In this document: positions 4,729-19,370 of the stretch, one piece after another | How the letters are laid out: each line of letters opens with the position of its first letter | Numbering within the stretch: position 1 is the first letter of the stretch | Virus record (IMG/VR): IMGVR_UViG_3300022752_005221 | Location: 1-20,691 of that record | Reading direction: 5' to 3' (one strand) | Source: a virus | Length of the DNA stretch: 20,691 nucleotides | The notes under the pieces: generated by a model | The model's database searches: none | What the model saw: the letters and a program-made list of their open reading frames with translations, nothing else | What the model was told of the DNA's origin: nothing | Translations under genes and position numbers: made by a program

Positions 4729-6302
4729 GAAAACCGGGCTCCGACGACTTCGGTGTAACGACCGCTTGGGCGCACGGCGATCTCGGATGGGCAGCGCAGC
4801 TTGGCTGCGCAGGCGATCGCTTCGTCCACCCGGCGGGGCAGCGGCAAGCCTTGGGCGCGGTTGGCCCACCAGGAGGCTGCCTTTTGGCGCGGATAGCCCT
4901 GGTGTTCGATGCAGATCCACTCGCTGTGGTGTGTGAGCCCGCTCCAGTAGTCCACCCGCAATGACGGCGGCTTGCCCGGCTTGTCATGTCGGGCGTAGGA
5001 GACACGGGTGACCGGCACCCACTCGGACTTGCCGGAGGTCAAAATGTCCAGGTTGCTGGCTTTGGCCTCGATCTTGAGTTCGGGCGGCGGGAACACATGC
5101 CCGCAATCAGGACAGGTGCGCACCGAGGCGTGCACGATGCTGTCGCACTCGGGGCAGGCCTTGGTGGGCGCAACGCCATCCTCACCGCCCTTGGGCCGCT
5201 TGGGCTTGACGGCATCAATGGGACCGTGGCGGGCAATGTTGCCGGCAAAGTCCAACACCAGGCAATCGGTCTTACCAGGCGCCAGCCGGCAGCCGCGACC
5301 CACGATTTGGACATACAGCCCTGCAGACTTCGTTGGACGCAGCATGGCGAGCAGGTCCACGCTTGGGGCGTTGAACCCGGTGGTGAGCACATTGGCGTTG
5401 GTCAGGCATTGAATCCTGCCAGCCTTGAAGTCATTGATGATGGACTCGCGCTGCGCACCGGGTGTGTCCCCGACGATGGTCTCGCAGCTCACGCCACGCG
5501 CACGAATCGCATCGCGCACATGGTAGGCATGGTCCACACCGGCACAGAAGATGAGCCAGCTTTTGCGGTCCTTGCCGTAGGAGAAGATTTCGTCAACGGC
5601 GGCCTGGGTGATGTTGTCCTTGTCGACCGCTGCCTCAAGGTCCTTGGCAATGAACTCGCCGCCGCGGGTGCCCACGCCCGTCAGGTCAATCTGGGTGGCC
5701 ATCCGCTTGGAGATCAGCGGCGAGAGGTAGCCCTGGTCGATCAACTCGCGCACCGACACCTCATAGGCTATGTCCGTGAAGATGGCGTCATCGCCCTCAT
5801 GCAGGAGTCCGGAGTCCAGCCGGTATGGCGTAGCGGTCAAGCCGATCACCTTCATCTGGGGGTTAAGTCGGGCCAGGTCAGAAAGAAAGCGCCGGTACAT
5901 GGTGTTGCTCGACCGCGGAATCAGGTGCGCCTCGTCAATGAGCACCAGATCACACTGCTGCACGTCATAGACCCGCTTGTGGATCGACTGGATGCCGGCA
6001 AAAAGGATCCGGGCATGGATATCACGCTGCTTGAGGCCGGCCGAATAGATGCCCGCCGGGGCCTGCGGCCAGAGCTTCTTGAGCTCGGTGTAGTTCTGCT
6101 CGATCAGCTCTCGAACGTGGGTCACGATCAGGATGCGCTGATCCGGGAAGGCCTTGAGCACACCTTCGACAAAGGTGGCCATCACCAGGGACTTGCCGCC
6201 CGCAGTGGGGATCACCACCAGCGGGTTGCCGGTGGCCTCATGAAAGTAGTTGTAGATGCCTTGAATGGCACCGCTTTGATAGGGGCGAAGGGTCAGACTC
6301 AT
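4725..6302 (-). CDS. Superfamily 2 DNA helicase with zinc ribbon (525 aa)
   Basis: All core SF2 motifs are visible: motif I TAGGKS at 33-38, motif II DEAH at 123-126, motif III TATP at 156-159, and motif VI QIVGRGCRL at 332-340. A four-cysteine zinc ribbon follows (C383, C386, C397, C400). Residues about 410-525 form a C-terminal part I cannot assign. Related helicases (SSL2/RAD25-like, type III restriction-like) in phages remodel branched DNA or assist replication. AAGGAG stands 8 bases before the ATG at 6302. The upstream nuclease gene's stop codon overlaps this Shine-Dalgarno, and its own stop overlaps the next gene by 4 bp, so the three genes are probably translated together. Confidence 0.9.
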   Translation of the reverse strand: MSLTLRPYQSGAIQGIYNYFHEATGNPLVVIPTAGGKSLVMATFVEGVLKAFPDQRILIVTHVRELIEQNYTELKKLWPQAPAGIYSAGLKQRDIHARILFAGIQSIHKRVYDVQQCDLVLIDEAHLIPRSSNTMYRRFLSDLARLNPQMKVIGLTATPYRLDSGLLHEGDDAIFTDIAYEVSVRELIDQGYLSPLISKRMATQIDLTGVGTRGGEFIAKDLEAAVDKDNITQAAVDEIFSYGKDRKSWLIFCAGVDHAYHVRDAIRARGVSCETIVGDTPGAQRESIINDFKAGRIQCLTNANVLTTGFNAPSVDLLAMLRPTKSAGLYVQIVGRGCRLAPGKTDCLVLDFAGNIARHGPIDAVKPKRPKGGEDGVAPTKACPECDSIVHASVRTCPDCGHVFPPPELKIEAKASNLDILTSGKSEWVPVTRVSYARHDKPGKPPSLRVDYWSGLTHHSEWICIEHQGYPRQKAASWWANRAQGLPLPRRVDEAIACAAKLRCPSEIAVRPSGRYTEVVGARFS

Positions 6303-6313
6303 GCTGGTGCTCC

Positions 6314-7270
6314 TTAAAAGGTGTTCGCATACTTGTTCATACCGGTGTCGCGCCAGCGATTCCCACTGGCGAACTCGTACTCGACCCAGTCCTCGCCTGC
6401 GTCGACCTGCTGGCCCGGCACCAGCGATGGGATGAAGAGGTGCATGGCGCAGGCAGCACGCTGGTCAGCCTCGGTCAACCGGCGGTCGTGACGTGCGCAG
6501 TGCCACCCTCCGTCGACGGGTGTCGCATGCAGGCAGGTGCGGCAATTGATCTCGGGGGCGGAAGCGTCTGGTGCGTCCGCGTGGCAGACCGGTGCGTGGT
6601 CACACATTCGGCACTGGTACCAGGCAGGATCTGTGCTGATGCGCGGCGGTGGGGTGGCCGCAAAGATGACTCGCTCCGCCTTGGCCAATAGGCCCTGCGC
6701 AAAAGCCGGATCTGCCTCGACCCGCTCGACGTAAACGTCGTCGGTGTCCTTGCAGACGGCCAGGTACATCGCACGGGTCAAGCCCATGAGGTGCATGTAG
6801 GTCTGCATCTGGGCAAAGTGCAGCGGCTTGCTATCGCGCACCTTCCTTGCCATCAAATCGTTGAAGCTCTTGACCGAGTGCGTCTTGAACTCCAGCACGT
6901 GCCAGGTCTTGGGCGCCTCCAGCAGGTTGATGGCCACGCCATCGAGCGAGCCCCCAAAGTGGCCACCATGCGCTTGAACCCGAAACTGGCGACCCGTGTC
7001 CGGATCAACTTCCAGAACCGTCGCTCCGGTGCGACGCAGGTTCTGAACCAGCCGAGCTTCTTCCAGTTGGCCGGTCTCAAACAGGCGCAAAAGGCGGCCA
7101 GGATGCCGGGCGCGGGTGACCCAGCGGAAATCAAACCAGAGGGCGCGCTCACATTCCTTGCCTATCAGCGACGCGCCAAGGTGGGCACGAAACCCGTCTC
7201 CTGCGTCGGCTTCGTAGGCGGAGAAGATCGCCTCTCGGGTGAGGCTGGTGATGCTGGGCAATTCAGCCAT
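6314..7270 (-). CDS. Cas4/RecB-like PD-(D/E)XK nuclease with probable Fe-S cluster (318 aa)
   Basis: The nuclease core is seen as GGSLDG (Asp110), HVLEFKTHS (Glu127, Lys129) and a QMQTY helix (154-158), the usual D...ExK...Q order. Cys40 in the GKECERALWF motif together with C220, C223 and C229 in CRMCDHAPVC reproduces the 1+3 cysteine layout that holds a 4Fe-4S cluster in Cas4 and AddB-type nucleases. A second cysteine group (C243, C246, C258, C274) follows. It probably resects DNA ends for the annealing proteins encoded upstream. The ATG at 7270 has a G-rich Shine-Dalgarno and overlaps the previous gene by 8 bp. No cas1, cas2 or CRISPR repeats are present, so a CRISPR role is unlikely. Confidence 0.85.
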   Translation of the reverse strand: MAELPSITSLTREAIFSAYEADAGDGFRAHLGASLIGKECERALWFDFRWVTRARHPGRLLRLFETGQLEEARLVQNLRRTGATVLEVDPDTGRQFRVQAHGGHFGGSLDGVAINLLEAPKTWHVLEFKTHSVKSFNDLMARKVRDSKPLHFAQMQTYMHLMGLTRAMYLAVCKDTDDVYVERVEADPAFAQGLLAKAERVIFAATPPPRISTDPAWYQCRMCDHAPVCHADAPDASAPEINCRTCLHATPVDGGWHCARHDRRLTEADQRAACAMHLFIPSLVPGQQVDAGEDWVEYEFASGNRWRDTGMNKYANTF

Positions 7271-7652
7271 GCTGCACCCCCTGCTTGGCGTGAAGCTCCC
7301 GGGCTCGGGTCACCGCTGCCTGCCAGCGCTCATCGTCGCAGCCGGCGCGCAGCACCTCGATCAGTGCATCCTTGAACCGCTCCCTGTGGCCCCCGGACTC
7401 AGCCGCATTCAACTTGGCCATGTGAGCGGTCAACTGCGCCAGTTCCTGCTGTTTCAGGCGCAGCGCCGTCTTGGCCCGGTGGAACCAGGTGGCATCGAGC
7501 GACTTCTTCTCTGTCTGGCGACGGATGTCGGTCGTTGCAATCTGGATCCTTATGGACGCGATCTCATCTTGAAGCGCGGCCAACCGCTCGCGGCAGCCCT
7601 GCAAGGTGCCGGGCAGTCGGATCGGCGTGGCCGCTGGCGCGTGCTCATGCAT
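7263..7652 (-). CDS. Coiled-coil protein of unknown function (129 aa)
   Basis: I place the start at the ATG at 7652, which has AAGGAGG 8 bases upstream. A longer in-frame version would run through the DUF669 gene and add a proline-rich stretch with no support. Residues about 20-82 are rich in Leu, Gln, Arg and Glu with a heptad feel, suggesting a coiled coil. The C-terminal part (RERFKDALIEVLRAG) is helical with acidic and basic residues. I do not recognise a family. It lies between a DUF669 protein and a nuclease whose start it overlaps by 8 bp, so it may be a nuclease partner; that is a guess. Confidence 0.75.
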   Translation of the reverse strand: MHEHAPAATPIRLPGTLQGCRERLAALQDEIASIRIQIATTDIRRQTEKKSLDATWFHRAKTALRLKQQELAQLTAHMAKLNAAESGGHRERFKDALIEVLRAGCDDERWQAAVTRARELHAKQGVQHG

Positions 7653-7665
7653 GCTCGGGTCCTCC

Positions 7666-8196
7666 TTACGCCTGGCGCTTCCAGGGCAGCCCGTTGGCCG
7701 CGGGGGTGGCGGTGGGGGCGGCCGTGATGGGGCGTGCAGCAACAGGAGCCTGGGGAGGCGTGAACGCCTGTGTGGGCTGAGCGACCGCTCCGCTAGTACC
7801 GCCTCGCGGCAGATAGCGGATGGAGTTGGACTCACCGTACAGGCCCTTGGGCGGGCGCACCCGCACATCAAGGGTGATAGGGATCAGATGCAACTGCTCG
7901 GAGTTACTCACCTGCATCTTGCCCACGGCGCGGCAAATCGACGACAGCGTGCGCTTGGCGATCTCTACCGTGTCGGGATTAGCGTTGACCAGATTGAGGC
8001 GGTCGAAAAGTTTACGACCGGCGTACTGACCCTCAAGGATGTCGACCTCCAGATACAGGTACTGGCCGGTGCCGTCTTTGGTCGGGCGCATTTCGCTGGC
8101 GACGATCTGGCCGAGGTACTTGCCCGGAGGCAGGACGTCGTAACTGGTGCTGGGCGCGACAGAGGATGCGTCGAAGGTTTGTCCGAATGAAGCCAT
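7666..8196 (-). CDS. DUF669 family protein, probable ssDNA-binding accessory (176 aa)
   Basis: The segment from residue 20 to about 130 matches the DUF669 pattern: YDVLPPGKYLGQIVASE near the start, a QYLYLEVDILEGQYAGRKLF core, and a late strand region including IPITLDVRV. The tail (132-176) is rich in Pro, Ala and Thr, looks disordered and ends in GLPWKRQA, as in many phage members. DUF669 proteins are thought to bind single-stranded DNA and are regularly encoded beside Sak4-type ATPases, as here. AAGGAG lies 8 bases before the ATG. The Sak4-like gene ends 16 bp upstream. Confidence 0.85.
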   Translation of the reverse strand: MASFGQTFDASSVAPSTSYDVLPPGKYLGQIVASEMRPTKDGTGQYLYLEVDILEGQYAGRKLFDRLNLVNANPDTVEIAKRTLSSICRAVGKMQVSNSEQLHLIPITLDVRVRPPKGLYGESNSIRYLPRGGTSGAVAQPTQAFTPPQAPVAARPITAAPTATPAANGLPWKRQA

Positions 8197-10081: not shown

Positions 10082-10645
10082 TCAGGCGGCCGGCCGAATG
10101 CCGAACATGCGCAGATGCATCTGCAGGTCGGCAACACGGCGGTAGAAAGTGGCGCTGGACATCCCAGAGGCCTTGGCGGCGGCGGGAAGATCTTGGTGAG
10201 CAACGAGAAGCTCAAACAGACGAGCTTGCTCGTTGTTCATGTAGGACAAAGCAGTTTGAATATCTCGAAGCGTTTCTGACTCGGCAAACAAGTCAGAGTC
10301 GTCCGCCCACAGTGGTTCGGCCCCGTCGGGAGCAACCTCACTCGAGGGAGAAAATTCATCGTCGTTAGCAGCTTCCCGCGCCGAAAAGAATGTGAGCTTT
10401 GCGCGATCGCGATTCAGCGCGACCAGGAAGTCTGCAGTCCGATGCTCTGAAACCACTCCTGTAAAGGTGCCGGCACATCCCCGGGCCGGATCAAACTGGC
10501 CGGACCGCTCCAGCAGGTCGAGAACAATAGATTGGTGAAGGTCTTCGCGATCGGCTTTTGTCAGCCTGGCAGAGACCGCAGCGCGGTAGGTACGTGTGGC
10601 GGCTGCATTGAAAACCGCTTGAAGGAAATAATCGTCGTTGGACAC
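10082..10645 (-). CDS. Sigma-factor-like HTH regulator, first gene of the early operon (187 aa)
   Basis: The start is a GTG at 10645-10643 with AGGAG 7 bases upstream. Residues about 32-70 (DREDLHQSIVLDLLERSGQF then DPARG) resemble sigma-70 region 2. Residues about 140-182, with AAAKASGMSSATFYRRV, resemble the region 4 helix-turn-helix. Between them is an acidic linker (about 90-120). Such proteins may act as alternative sigma factors or activators for phage promoters. Its lead position suggests it turns on later genes. It is shorter and more divergent than housekeeping sigma factors, so it could be a plain HTH activator. The upstream 127 bp hold repeats and a hairpin described separately. 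Confidence 0.75.
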   Translation of the reverse strand: MSNDDYFLQAVFNAAATRTYRAAVSARLTKADREDLHQSIVLDLLERSGQFDPARGCAGTFTGVVSEHRTADFLVALNRDRAKLTFFSAREAANDDEFSPSSEVAPDGAEPLWADDSDLFAESETLRDIQTALSYMNNEQARLFELLVAHQDLPAAAKASGMSSATFYRRVADLQMHLRMFGIRPAA

Positions 10646-10772: not shown

Positions 10773-13022
10773 TCAAACCAGCAACTGAAAACTTCCCCGC
10801 TTGGAAAGAGGCGGCGGACCAACATAGACGCCCAAAATCGCCCGCCAAACTTCTGGCCGGAACAACTGGCTTGGCGTGGCTGCAGTCGAGCCGGCGGCCA
10901 CCATCAATCTCTTGGTGGGCACCGCAGGAACGCCAGTGCGATAAGCATCAACCAGCGCCTGAAAAAAGTCGATTTGTTTTTGCCCTGAAAGGGGAAGAGA
11001 TGGCTTGCCCGGGATGTACAGCGTTGCGCTGTAGACATCCGTACGGACAAGGTCAATCACGGAGCCGCCTTGTGCAAGTTGCTTGCGCTGCTCAAAAGTC
11101 GAACCCAACTTAGCTACGTCAATGAGCGCCTCATCGCCGCCAGACGAAAGAATTTCGGCTACACAGACGATGACGTTTGAACCTAAACAAAGGGGATGAT
11201 CGCGCCCACCGGAAAGAACGACTCCGACACCCTGATCTGCGCGGCTTCGCAAGATCACATCAAGGCGTTGCAGGCTTCCTGGGGTGCGAAGATCACGGGC
11301 CAAATAGCACGGAACCGGGACGCCTTGAAAATTGATAGCGCCAAGAAAGGTCAGCAGGTCATCGAGCTTGACCAACGAATTCGTGGCCATGTGAGCCGAG
11401 AGCCTTTTGACGACGATTTCGTCAAGCCAGTCCCGCCGAACGCTGAACTTCTCAACAGCCAGATACGGCAGTTCGACCTTACGCCCATCCTCCGGATGGT
11501 CATAAACCACAACACCTGGTTTCCCTGAAGCGCGAACACTGACCTCATGACTGGTGCCGTCCTCGTCAATAAGTAGGCTTTGGTAGCGCCCCTTGCGCTC
11601 GATGAACCCTACCTCTTGAAGCGCGACCGGATCCAGGTTGCGGGTCAGGAAATAGTTGCCAGGAACTTCCACGATGGTCTGGTCGTACAGCATCATCAGC
11701 GCCGGGAAATGTGCTTTTTCCTGTTCAGCGTCCATCGCGACCACCTGACGCAAGACTCCCCAGGAGCTGAGCAACGCGTACCCAAGATCCCGCTGAACGG
11801 GATCCCGATTGCTTCGCAAATTACACCTGTTTGGCTCGGAAAGAGTGATGTTCAGCGTCTTGGCCTTGCTATCGCCATGACGGGTGTAGCGCACAGCAAT
11901 CACCACCCGTGCAAGACTGACTGCCTTCTTAAAGATGTGATCTTGGCCAAACATGGCTTGGGCCACAGCCTCGATGTCATCAGCCAGCGTTACCTTGAGG
12001 CCAGCCCTGTGTTTTGGGTTGTCGGGCCTGCAGTCGACTTCGACGACAGCGACTCGCTCAATATCGAACCCTGGAACCGTCGGAGTACTCAAACTCAATG
12101 AACTCAAAAAGCGTGAGAGGTCATATTGCTTGAGCGTCAACGGCCGATCAGAAAGATCCATCTTCAGGCCAACCTGGGCGAAAGCCGCAGCGACCCTTTG
12201 CCTTACCGCTGGACTGGCAGAGAAAATCTCCAGTACGCCTTCGTCGGGGACATAGAGTAGCGTCGCCTCATTCAGAGGGCGGTAGTAGCGCTCTTTCCTT
12301 GTGCCATCGGCTTCAAGAAATTCTGCGACGCTTGAAAGCGGCCCGCCGTGACGAACCAGAATCAGATGCTGGACCTGATCATTTCCATCTTGATCTTTAC
12401 CAGTGGTCTCCAAGTGGGTTACTGAACACCGTCCATTGAGCTCCAGTGTCTTCTGAATTTCAGCCTCAAGCGCTTCACGCACCGTTTCGTCCCAAACGAA
12501 GCGCACCTCATCACGTGCGTCCAGCTCGAATGCCTCGTACATACGACCAAAATTTCGGTAGTGGTCAACATAGAACAGGCTTTCGGCTTCGTCGAACAAC
12601 AGTTGATCGTTCTGATACAGCCACACGCTTCGACCCACTGCATCCAGCTGTCCATGAAATGCGGCGATCTTCTCGGTATCGAACAGACGTTCTGCTGCCC
12701 GGTTCAATGCTTCGGTGCCTCGACCATCGGCAAGAGTCAAAATGCGTTGGGCATGCCGATCCAATGGGACAGCAACATCACTCGCAAGTGAATTGGCGAC
12801 TCGGAGCAGATGTTCCCTAAGTTCAAGAATGACCGCGTCGTCTCTCTGCGAAGGCCAGGCAGGCGTGAGAAAGATGGAAGCATGCGCCCCGTCCTCGACA
12901 TCCCGGAAAAATGGCTCAAGCGCATCCAGCGGTGCGGTCTCCAGCAGTCGGTGCAGTGAAACACCGTTCTTGAAGCTTGTGGCTTTCACTGCCTGGCTTG
13001 TTTGTGTTTTTGTTTCGCCCAT
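10773..13022 (-). CDS. Large protein of unknown function in a type I restriction-modification operon (749 aa)
   Basis: I do not recognise a family. The protein is soluble in appearance, with no signal peptide, membrane span, P-loop, HEXXH or clear nuclease motif. The N-terminal third is rich in acidic helices (about 70-200). The middle has a QHLILVRHGG strand and a RYYRPLNEATLLYVPDEGVL stretch, followed by a possible alpha/beta repeat. A region at about 330-430 is beta-rich with basic residues. AGGAG stands before the ATG at 13022, 9 bp after the metallopeptidase stop. It ends the hsd operon and so is probably made together with the restriction enzyme. GC content in part of it (47.5% by hand count over 12541-12660) is lower than in the phage replication genes. 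Confidence 0.8.
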   Translation of the reverse strand: MGETKTQTSQAVKATSFKNGVSLHRLLETAPLDALEPFFRDVEDGAHASIFLTPAWPSQRDDAVILELREHLLRVANSLASDVAVPLDRHAQRILTLADGRGTEALNRAAERLFDTEKIAAFHGQLDAVGRSVWLYQNDQLLFDEAESLFYVDHYRNFGRMYEAFELDARDEVRFVWDETVREALEAEIQKTLELNGRCSVTHLETTGKDQDGNDQVQHLILVRHGGPLSSVAEFLEADGTRKERYYRPLNEATLLYVPDEGVLEIFSASPAVRQRVAAAFAQVGLKMDLSDRPLTLKQYDLSRFLSSLSLSTPTVPGFDIERVAVVEVDCRPDNPKHRAGLKVTLADDIEAVAQAMFGQDHIFKKAVSLARVVIAVRYTRHGDSKAKTLNITLSEPNRCNLRSNRDPVQRDLGYALLSSWGVLRQVVAMDAEQEKAHFPALMMLYDQTIVEVPGNYFLTRNLDPVALQEVGFIERKGRYQSLLIDEDGTSHEVSVRASGKPGVVVYDHPEDGRKVELPYLAVEKFSVRRDWLDEIVVKRLSAHMATNSLVKLDDLLTFLGAINFQGVPVPCYLARDLRTPGSLQRLDVILRSRADQGVGVVLSGGRDHPLCLGSNVIVCVAEILSSGGDEALIDVAKLGSTFEQRKQLAQGGSVIDLVRTDVYSATLYIPGKPSLPLSGQKQIDFFQALVDAYRTGVPAVPTKRLMVAAGSTAATPSQLFRPEVWRAILGVYVGPPPLSKRGSFQLLV

Positions 13023-13031
13023 ACGGCACTC

Positions 13032-13336
13032 CTAAATCTCGCGGCTGCTCAACTCATATTCCCTCCAGCCAGGCACATGGGCGCTGAGAAGCGCCTTGAA
13101 CATTCGCCCGTGCCTGGCGAACCGCAGATGCAGCAGTTCGTGAACGATTACGTAGTCTTGAAAACGTTTGTCTCGATCGAGCAAATCCAAGGCTAAAGTC
13201 ACTGTCCCAGAAGCAGTGCAAGAGCCCCACTTCCGGCGCATTTCCTGCACGCGCACAACGCGGGGATTGACCTTCAGCCTCACAGCCCACGCCATGGCGC
13301 GGCGCCGCAGATCCTGAGCGGGGTATGGCGACTTTT

Positions 13337-13340
<4 letters not shown>
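13032..13340 (-). CDS. Short YgjP-type zinc metallopeptidase (102 aa)
   Basis: The conserved YgjP/DUF45 core is clear: [11 protein letters not shown] at 35-45, the zinc motif HELLH at 67-71 and a third ligand His77, followed by [13 protein letters not shown]. coli YgjP is longer, and many homologues reach well over 200 residues, so this is a minimal version lacking most of the N-terminal part. Small metallopeptidases of this kind are often found directly after hsdR in type I restriction loci, though their task there is not established. The ATG overlaps the hsdR stop by 4 bp (ATGA), so the two are translationally coupled. The catalytic residues are all present. Confidence 0.85.
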
Positions 13341-16275
<2,935 letters not shown>

Positions 16276-16279
<4 letters not shown>

Positions 16280-17483
16280 GCTGCAGCCCCCTCATACTGA
16301 GCCAAGGCTCCGGGCTGCGCCGACAGATCCAGATCGGTCACGGCGATTTCGCCGTTCACCAGCTGGTGCAACAAGGAGTTGAAAAGCTCTTCCAGAATTA
16401 ATCGCTTTCGGCAATGCAGCGCGATTTTTCTGTCGATAGCTTCAAGCACAGCGACAATTTTTTCCTGCTCCTCCAGAGAGGGTAATGGCACAGGCCAAGG
16501 TGAAAGAAACTGTATGTTGATATTTTTTTGCGTCCCCTTCGGAGCCTCCCGATCCATCTTGGGCTGCTGAGTTTGCAGGTAGTAATTTAAAAACTTGTTA
16601 TTTAGATCTGTCGAAGGTGAAATTGCAATAAGGCTGTCGGGGCATGCAGCATTGAATTCAAGGATTCCTGAATAGCCGATATTTGCCGCAATCGTGATGA
16701 GAATCGTACCGGCTTTGAACTCGCGGCTAATTGCAACACCCACTTCATTCAAAGTCTGCGAGTAGTTTTGGATGTACCCGGCAGACCGCACAACGTCGCC
16801 GGTTTGGATGAATGGTGTTTTGCCGCCATAAAACCTGGGCTCGTTCCGAGGTCGATGCATAAAGCGTCCACGCTCAAGAGTTGCAACTTCGCTCAGCGAA
16901 TGAACGACCCACGTCTCTGGCAACAGCCCGATCTCAGTTTCCTTCCGAGGCTCGCCACGCAGCCCGCGCGTGAACAACTCGCGCATGGAGGCGCGTTTGA
17001 GTTCTCGTAGGTTGTCGATTAGTGCCGTCTGCTGCTGCAACGCTGACTCCGTCTTACGAAGGACACCGGCAATCGCCCTCTGCTCAGTTGTATTGAGCGG
17101 ATAGGCCAGTTCCTTCTCCTTCAGGATGGTGAAATGCCGGTTGTAGCCGCGTGCAGGTAGGTCGATAGCACGGCAGGCGTAGAAGAAGAAAAGTGGATCA
17201 ATGCCGTCCTTGGGTCGCAGCAGTTGCGTACCGTCTGCTCCACGGGCAAAAGGGCGATCCACGAATTTGAAAGTACGGGTGTGATCGCCAAAAACGATCA
17301 ATGGGAGTGGTGAATCAATCACAGCACTCTCGTCATCAGTCCAGCCAGCAACCGGCTCCTGTCCCTGATCGATTACCTGAAAGCGACCGCTCGGCTTGTA
17401 GTCGCGCGCTTGGACCTTTGTTTTTCCCGCAGTCGGCACCGTAACCAGGCAATCTGCTACGGAAGCAACATCCCAGAGTCGGC

Positions 17484-17487
<4 letters not shown>
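16276..17487 (-). CDS. hsdS: Type I restriction specificity subunit (HsdS), 403 aa
   Basis: Two target-recognition domains are separated by helical spacers. TRD1 covers about 1-130; the first conserved helix (133-178) includes [19 protein letters not shown] and the hallmark [19 protein letters not shown]2 covers about 186-337, and the second helix (338-381) includes [17 protein letters not shown]. Each TRD reads half of a bipartite DNA site. TRD1 is of the 'slim' type. The gene overlaps hsdM and hsdR as ATGA. DNA coding for TRD2 is markedly AT-richer than its surroundings, 43% GC by hand count over 16501-16680, so this TRD has probably been swapped in. The target sequence cannot be read from the protein. 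Confidence 0.96.
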
Positions 17488-19333
<1,846 letters not shown>

Positions 19334-19334
<1 letters not shown>

Positions 19335-19370
19335 GTTGATATGATTGCTATGTTTGTTATGTTTGTCAAC
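19334..19370 (-). promoter_or_regulatory. Candidate hsdM promoter with three 9-bp tandem repeats (probable autoregulatory operator)
   Basis: On the minus strand TTGACA (19369-19364), a 17-base spacer and AATCAT (19346-19341) form a sigma-70-like promoter. Six bases later comes the hsdM ATG, so transcription would begin on or beside the A of the ATG. The promoter is filled by ACAAACATA (19366-19358), ACAAACATA (19357-19349) and GCAATCATA (19348-19340). GTTGA and TCAAC flank the array as a dyad (19370-19366 and 19339-19335). No Shine-Dalgarno is present. Confidence 0.65.

Follow-up and report, generated by a model that had tools for sequence, protein, structure and literature searches.

The type II HTH-methyltransferase fusions M.SsoII, M.Ecl18kI, and M.EcoRII repress their own expression (PMC3978073, PMC3695355; reviewed in PMC12707154). 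Among type I systems, RptR binds cooperatively to three 9-bp direct repeats located over the operon promoter (PMC12255303). In Mycoplasma gallisepticum, the type I hsd operon has a C-protein homologue, HsdC, which binds direct repeats over -10/+1 and is thought to act as a repressor; the fusions listed in the table of the same paper are of type II (PMC5282649). A leaderless C-dependent transcript has been described for PvuII (PMC2997769). In a search of the open-access literature, neither a type I HTH-HsdM fusion nor an operator belonging to one was found described.

The present analysis concerned a 20,691-base virus record, referred to in its whole length as the window, which carries a type I operon on its minus strand. 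Comparative evidence suggests, with a probability of roughly 0.8, that this operon is self-regulated: the HTH of HsdM would bind a 9-bp array and autorepress the leaderless promoter of hsdM-hsdS-hsdR-ygjP. The subfamily extends over more than a dozen phyla, with the regulator located inside HsdM and a candidate operator in a leaderless promoter. It could provide a concrete example, testable at low cost, of type I genes that set their own level, and might explain how an operon of this kind enters and works in very different hosts.

Organization of the type I operon

The presence of HsdM, HsdS, and HsdR in one locus identified the operon as a type I RM system. The following genes were predicted.

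17484–19334, minus strand: hsdM (HTH-HsdM), 616 aa, with HTH_3/HTH_31 (E 1e-8 to 1e-9), HsdM_N, and N6_Mtase domains
16276–17487, minus strand: hsdS, specificity subunit, Methylase_S (E 4e-25)
13337–16279, minus strand: hsdR, restriction subunit, TIGR00348 hsdR, above cut-off
13032–13340, minus strand: YgjP-like metallopeptidase gene (PF01863), the downstream neighbour of hsdR

The genes were arranged in the order hsdM-hsdS-hsdR-ygjP, with neighbours overlapping or abutting. A YgjP-like gene also followed hsdR in 43 loci of relatives, and the metallopeptidase is apparently the standing fourth gene of the hsdM-hsdS-hsdR operon. Directly downstream of the operon, a 749-aa protein (10773–13022, minus strand) had phrog_37634 (unknown) as its sole match. 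A 187-aa protein (10082–10645, minus strand), encoded in the same direction as the operon, was weakly sigma-factor-like.

Scanning of positions 13000–18000 revealed no promoter-like element within the operon. M, S, and R thus share the hsdM promoter, and its repression would lower all three together. The initial annotation had proposed that host DNA could be methylated before restriction rises; since the three genes form one operon and nothing was seen that delays R, this idea found no support. Simpler consequences than delayed restriction would be a burst of expression when the operon enters a cell and a low dosage at steady state.

Relatives and the conserved upstream footprint

Close relatives of HsdM (62–91% identity) were present at 7 viral and 80 genome loci. 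Nearly all of these 87 sequences aligned from residue 12 or before, which indicates that the HTH fusion is the normal state of the family. They were distributed over more than a dozen phyla (Pseudomonadota, Actinomycetota, Nitrospirota, Planctomycetota, Chloroflexota, Acidobacteriota, Gemmatimonadota, Latescibacterota, and others), and single odd hosts among them may be binning errors, as many relatives are metagenome bins. In the tree, the window grouped with two Burkholderiales sequences, L010 and L009. Cultured carriers include Pseudoxanthomonas taiwanensis, Vulcaniibacterium thermophilum, and Tepidimonas alkaliphilus. No relative above 60% identity was found in the phage and plasmid record collections.

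For the footprint, the upstream regions of 78 non-redundant relatives (HsdM about 71–91% identical; at most 85% identity in the last 60 bases) were aligned on the start codon without gaps. The mean information was 0.01–0.02 bit per base from -200 to -40; it rose to 0.51 between -40 and -1 and to 0.98 in the first 12 coding bases. The conserved block upstream of hsdM had a sharp onset at about -36. A TTGAC at about the window's distance from the ATG was observed in 50 of the 78 relatives, compared to 6 of 1014 control windows of the same width.

Promoter and start of hsdM

The elements around the hsdM start in the window were as follows.

19364–19369, minus strand: -35 hexamer TTGACA, which doubles as the 5' part of the first 9-bp unit TTGACAAAC (19361–19369)
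19341–19346, minus strand: -10 hexamer AATCAT, at -12 to -7 from the ATG
19332–19334, minus strand: hsdM ATG, with the putative transcription start (+1) at its A (19334), from promoter geometry
19336–19363, plus strand: second promoter-like pair, TTGATA-16-TATGTT, divergent and overlying the array

According to the initial annotation, TTGACA-17-AATCAT would make transcription begin with the first base of the hsdM ATG; the promoter geometry behind this reading was confirmed at 19369–19341 on the minus strand. The 17-nt spacer is followed by 6 nt to the ATG, and 10 of 12 bases match the consensus, the -10 hexamer contributing 4 of 6. For transcription to begin at the ATG, the -10 element should cover -12 to -7, exactly where the window hexamer sits. 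The A at -11, the base that matters most in such an element, was conserved in 88% of all 78 relatives. In a 1-kb region only two promoter-like pairs were detected (0.1 expected). The second is the rightward pair, already noticed in the initial annotation; rightward pairs occurred in 20 of the 78 relatives versus 3.9 in shuffled sequences, and they may arise as a side effect of the AT-rich repeats.

No Shine-Dalgarno sequence preceded the hsdM ATG in the window, as had been noted earlier, and its core was found in none of the 78 relatives even under a loose definition. The start codon was ATG in 77 of 78. An upstream GTG start (19472, 662-aa frame) was ruled out, as conservation begins at the promoter and the relatives start at the homologous ATG. 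From the promoter geometry and the lack of a Shine-Dalgarno sequence, the hsdM mRNA is predicted to be leaderless, with the A of the ATG as its 5' end.

The 9-bp array

The array in the window could be read in two registers, one giving four successive copies (first four lines) and that of the family (last three lines).

19366–19358, minus strand: repeat ACAAACATA
19357–19349, minus strand: second copy of ACAAACATA
19348–19340, minus strand: repeat GCAATCATA
19339–19331, minus strand: degenerate fourth copy TCAACATGA, overlying the start codon
19352–19360, minus strand: unit ATAACAAAC, 13.3 bits with the relatives' unit matrix, the top 9-mer of the window
19343–19351, minus strand: unit ATAGCAATC, 8.6 bits with the same matrix
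19335–19342, minus strand: shortened unit ATATCAAC, 8 nt, adjoining the start codon, where relatives have ATAGCAAAC at -9 to -1

The three near-identical 9-bp repeats reported earlier were thus present at 19366–19340, together with a fourth, degenerate copy. In the family register the window reads TTGACAAAC-ATAACAAAC-ATAGCAATC-ATATCAAC-ATG, with all units in one orientation and the final unit one base short of 9. The lag-9 self-match was 0.64, a value reached by 0 of 2000 shuffles. A general direct-repeat search reported no direct family in the window at its settings, so that the repeat evidence for the window is the lag test. When a triple array was scanned over both strands of the 20.7 kb, using a matrix built from relatives alone, to which neither the window nor its sister L010 contributed, the hsdM site was the best at 26.0 bits, and the next, unrelated site scored 11.7.

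The comparison of this promoter among homologues, which the initial annotation had suggested, revealed conservation of the repeats in the 78 relatives. The unit consensus of the family was ATAGCAAAC, on a 9-bp grid that ends at the ATG or crosses it. Sixty-two loci were taken to be in register on the strength of a CA at -5/-4 together with an A at -11; their consensus comprised TTGACA at -36 or -35, ATAGCAAAT at -18, ATAGCAAAC at -9, and ATGACAAA at +1. Across relatives, the lag-9 self-match was 0.47 versus 0.28 in shuffled sequences (z = 21). Matches to the unit matrix fell on one 9-bp grid: the hsdM strand had them at -18, -9, +1, and +10, and inverted matches lay at -27 and -18. The counts at -18 and -9 are partly circular, these being the matrix source, while the sites at +1 and +10 and the inverted sites are independent of it. 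Around -14 a partial dyad was seen (0.475, compared to a median of 0.253). It was rejected as the main operator element, as column pairs hardly covaried beyond composition; the 9-bp grid is therefore the main signal.

The repeats might instead serve promoter strength and leaderless translation, with an A-rich, CA-rich start and no protein site. CA-rich sequence after the start codon is reported to aid translation, and leaderless mRNAs favour AUG, in line with the nearly uniform ATG starts. However, the 9-bp period also covers DNA that is not transcribed, and inverted units share the grid, with at least one inverted match in 38 of the 78 loci. The upstream units of Nitrospirota are inverted, and one locus of that phylum (L059, 5952–5990) carries a perfect 13-bp inverted pair, TTTGATATGTTTG/CAAACATATCAAA, upstream of hsdM. 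One building block in two orientations has the look of a protein site and would be hard to fit to promoter and translation needs alone. Considering also that HsdM genes without an HTH lack the repeats, this explanation appears very unlikely.

The grid could also be followed past the start codon. Where codon 2 encodes threonine it was ACA in 51 of 55 genes, compared to 4.5 expected (ACA makes up 8% of threonine codons in those genes). This excess indicates that, in most relatives, selection at the DNA level keeps the repeat going past the start of the coding sequence; codon 2 of the window hsdM is asparagine.

Linkage of the array to the HTH

Control HsdM genes without an HTH were drawn from genomes, since viral contigs gave too few members. 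None of the 24 controls had the array (best score 3.5 bits), and 19 of them had SD-like motifs. Among the fusions, 71 of 78 scored above the 99th percentile of shuffles, 8.1 bits. The same sample, drawn blind, also contained two intact fusions, L148 (the same gene as L033; 25.0 bits) and L155 (new; 26.3 bits), both without a Shine-Dalgarno sequence. In L007, whose HsdM (5824–7683 in an 83-kb viral contig) is 77% identical in the remainder, HTH helices 1–3 were gone and the array was gone too. The suspicion that a chance AT-rich stretch was taken for repeats and promoter is understandable, as promoter-like matches come easily in AT-rich DNA. It is refuted by the footprint conservation, the lag-9 test, the ACA bias at codon 2, the array scan, and the HTH-less controls, and its probability is practically negligible.

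With up to 2 mismatches allowed, each of the 31 carrier genomes searched contained the operator, 30 of them in a single copy, while a reversed control gave 0 matches. In G004, a second operator copy precedes a second, broken HTH-HsdM. At L089 (Vulcaniibacterium gelatinicum), the HTH-HsdM start behind the second operator leaves the family frame after the HTH and linker, as a broken or rearranged second copy. Among 369 genomes taken regardless of hsdM, all four exact operator matches preceded an HTH-HsdM gene, as did one of four matches with one mismatch. In viral contigs this applied to 2 of 9 matches, the other 7 belonging to two AT-rich families in contexts unrelated to hsdM. A window-type promoter string in the viral contigs L127 and L128 was likewise discarded as an unrelated AT-rich match.

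The array could also be the operator of another regulator, of host or phage, with the HTH targeting the methylase or restriction complex to DNA. XRE-type HTH domains have many roles, and operator specificity cannot be told from sequence. Against this, the array is kept together with the fused HTH in over a dozen phyla, where one common regulator is unlikely, and in most carrier genomes it occurs only at hsdM. Such an arrangement is considered highly improbable. Binding and autorepression by HsdM itself, as put forward in the initial annotation, is the best reading of the comparative evidence, in which HTH and repeats appear co-conserved.

At the edge of the family the arrangement has changed: distant fusions (L109–L111, 49–52% identity; L008, 62%) kept the HTH but had no clear array. 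The promoter sequences of L109–L111 are different ones, with an SD-like GGTG in L110 and L111 and a near-consensus promoter 7 nt before the ATG in L109. As the relatives share ancestry, it is mainly a single gene family that underlies the link between HTH and operator; one event of clear joint loss was seen (L007), in addition to the unlinked controls.

The HTH domain of HsdM

The layout of the 616-aa HsdM could be outlined as follows.

Residues about 8–62 (19149–19313, minus strand): HTH, with helices at 8–19, 23–30, 34–41, and 49–62 in the AlphaFold2 model
Residues 66–92: linker
Residues 97–246: HsdM_N
Residues 259–573: N6_Mtase

The domain searches bore out the Cro/CI-type HTH that had been placed at the opening of HsdM. 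The full-length model was of low confidence (pLDDT 63.5) and was used just for the HTH and linker. The segment SFATVNRWE (residues 33–42), the recognition helix, was 96% conserved, compared to 49% for the linker and 87–89% for the methylase core; in sequence conservation, the recognition helix equals the catalytic core. The closest solved folds of the predicted HTH were C.Kpn2I (4yba, rank 1, E 0.004) and then the P22 c2 repressor, with C.BclI and C.AhdI also in the top 25. The E-values were modest, as is expected for a small, common fold such as the HTH. The Cro/CI-type fold of the C-protein family was thus found here, although the value of 0.004 for C.Kpn2I is a weak number.

This resemblance to controller proteins, and the C-activated leaderless transcript of PvuII (PMC2997769), could argue for dual control, in which HsdM would activate and then repress its own promoter as a delayed switch. 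The array, however, lies on the promoter itself (-36 to +9), with no conserved activator site from -200 to -40, and the near-consensus -35 element means that activation is not needed. Dual control is therefore considered unlikely, and autorepression by HsdM remains the preferred reading.

Proposed mechanism

We infer the binding of the HTH to the operator, the repression, and its dynamics from the observed conservation, the HTH-operator linkage, and the single-operon gene order. The element that carries the operon is taken to be viral or proviral. RNA polymerase would start at the A of the hsdM ATG, giving an mRNA translated without a leader. The N-terminal HTH of HsdM would then bind 9-bp half-sites (consensus ATAGCAAAC) on a grid that runs from the -35 box up to the start codon, extending in some clades into coding sequence, so that bound HsdM would occlude -35, -10, and +1. 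Rising HsdM, free or as M2S, would silence the operon as a whole. In a newly entered cell that contains no HsdM, the promoter would be fully open, and later autorepression would settle expression at a low steady level.

A broader proposal is put forward tentatively, at somewhat short of even odds: the operon may represent a widespread, horizontally moving type I subfamily in which the methylase subunit is the repressor. Its promoter could read the assembly state (free M, M2S, R2M2S1) through the two HTHs of each M2S on the half-site array, and the leaderless mRNA could free the operon from host ribosome-binding rules, making it portable between phyla.

Comparison with known systems

RptR resembles the present locus in having 9-bp direct repeats on a type I promoter and a regulator that heads the operon. 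It is, however, a separate 9-kDa protein of another fold that recognizes a TAGCTA palindrome, whereas the putative regulator here is fused in HsdM with the unit ATAGCAAAC; the window, without a separate repressor and TAGCTA sites, falls outside the RptR family. HsdC is likewise a separate protein, with the motif (GTGTTAN5)2, while the window regulator would be part of HsdM.

C.PvuII, C.AhdI, and C.Kpn2I share the HTH fold, and the PvuII transcript is leaderless as well. Each of them is a small protein of its own, as a rule an activator of C and R, and their operators differ from that of the window. A C protein is a separate HTH protein of about 80 aa, whereas the HTH of the window lies within a 616-aa protein. 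The initial annotation's view of the locus as a type I counterpart of C-protein control therefore holds as part of the picture only: separate type I repressors, HsdC and RptR, were already known, and the type II HTH-methyltransferase fusion appears to be the closer analogue.

With M.SsoII, M.Ecl18kI, and M.EcoRII the window HsdM shares an HTH N-terminal to the methyltransferase, joined by a flexible linker, a candidate operator over its own promoter, and probably autorepression. Those enzymes are type II cytosine methyltransferases, whereas the window encodes a type I adenine HsdM (N6_Mtase), and the 9-bp tandem array is unlike the operators of that group. In SsoII and Ecl18kI a divergent R promoter gains once M is shut off; the window has no divergent overlapping R gene, hsdR lying downstream in the same direction. 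The window HsdM appears to work like a regulatory methyltransferase, yet outside that type II group.
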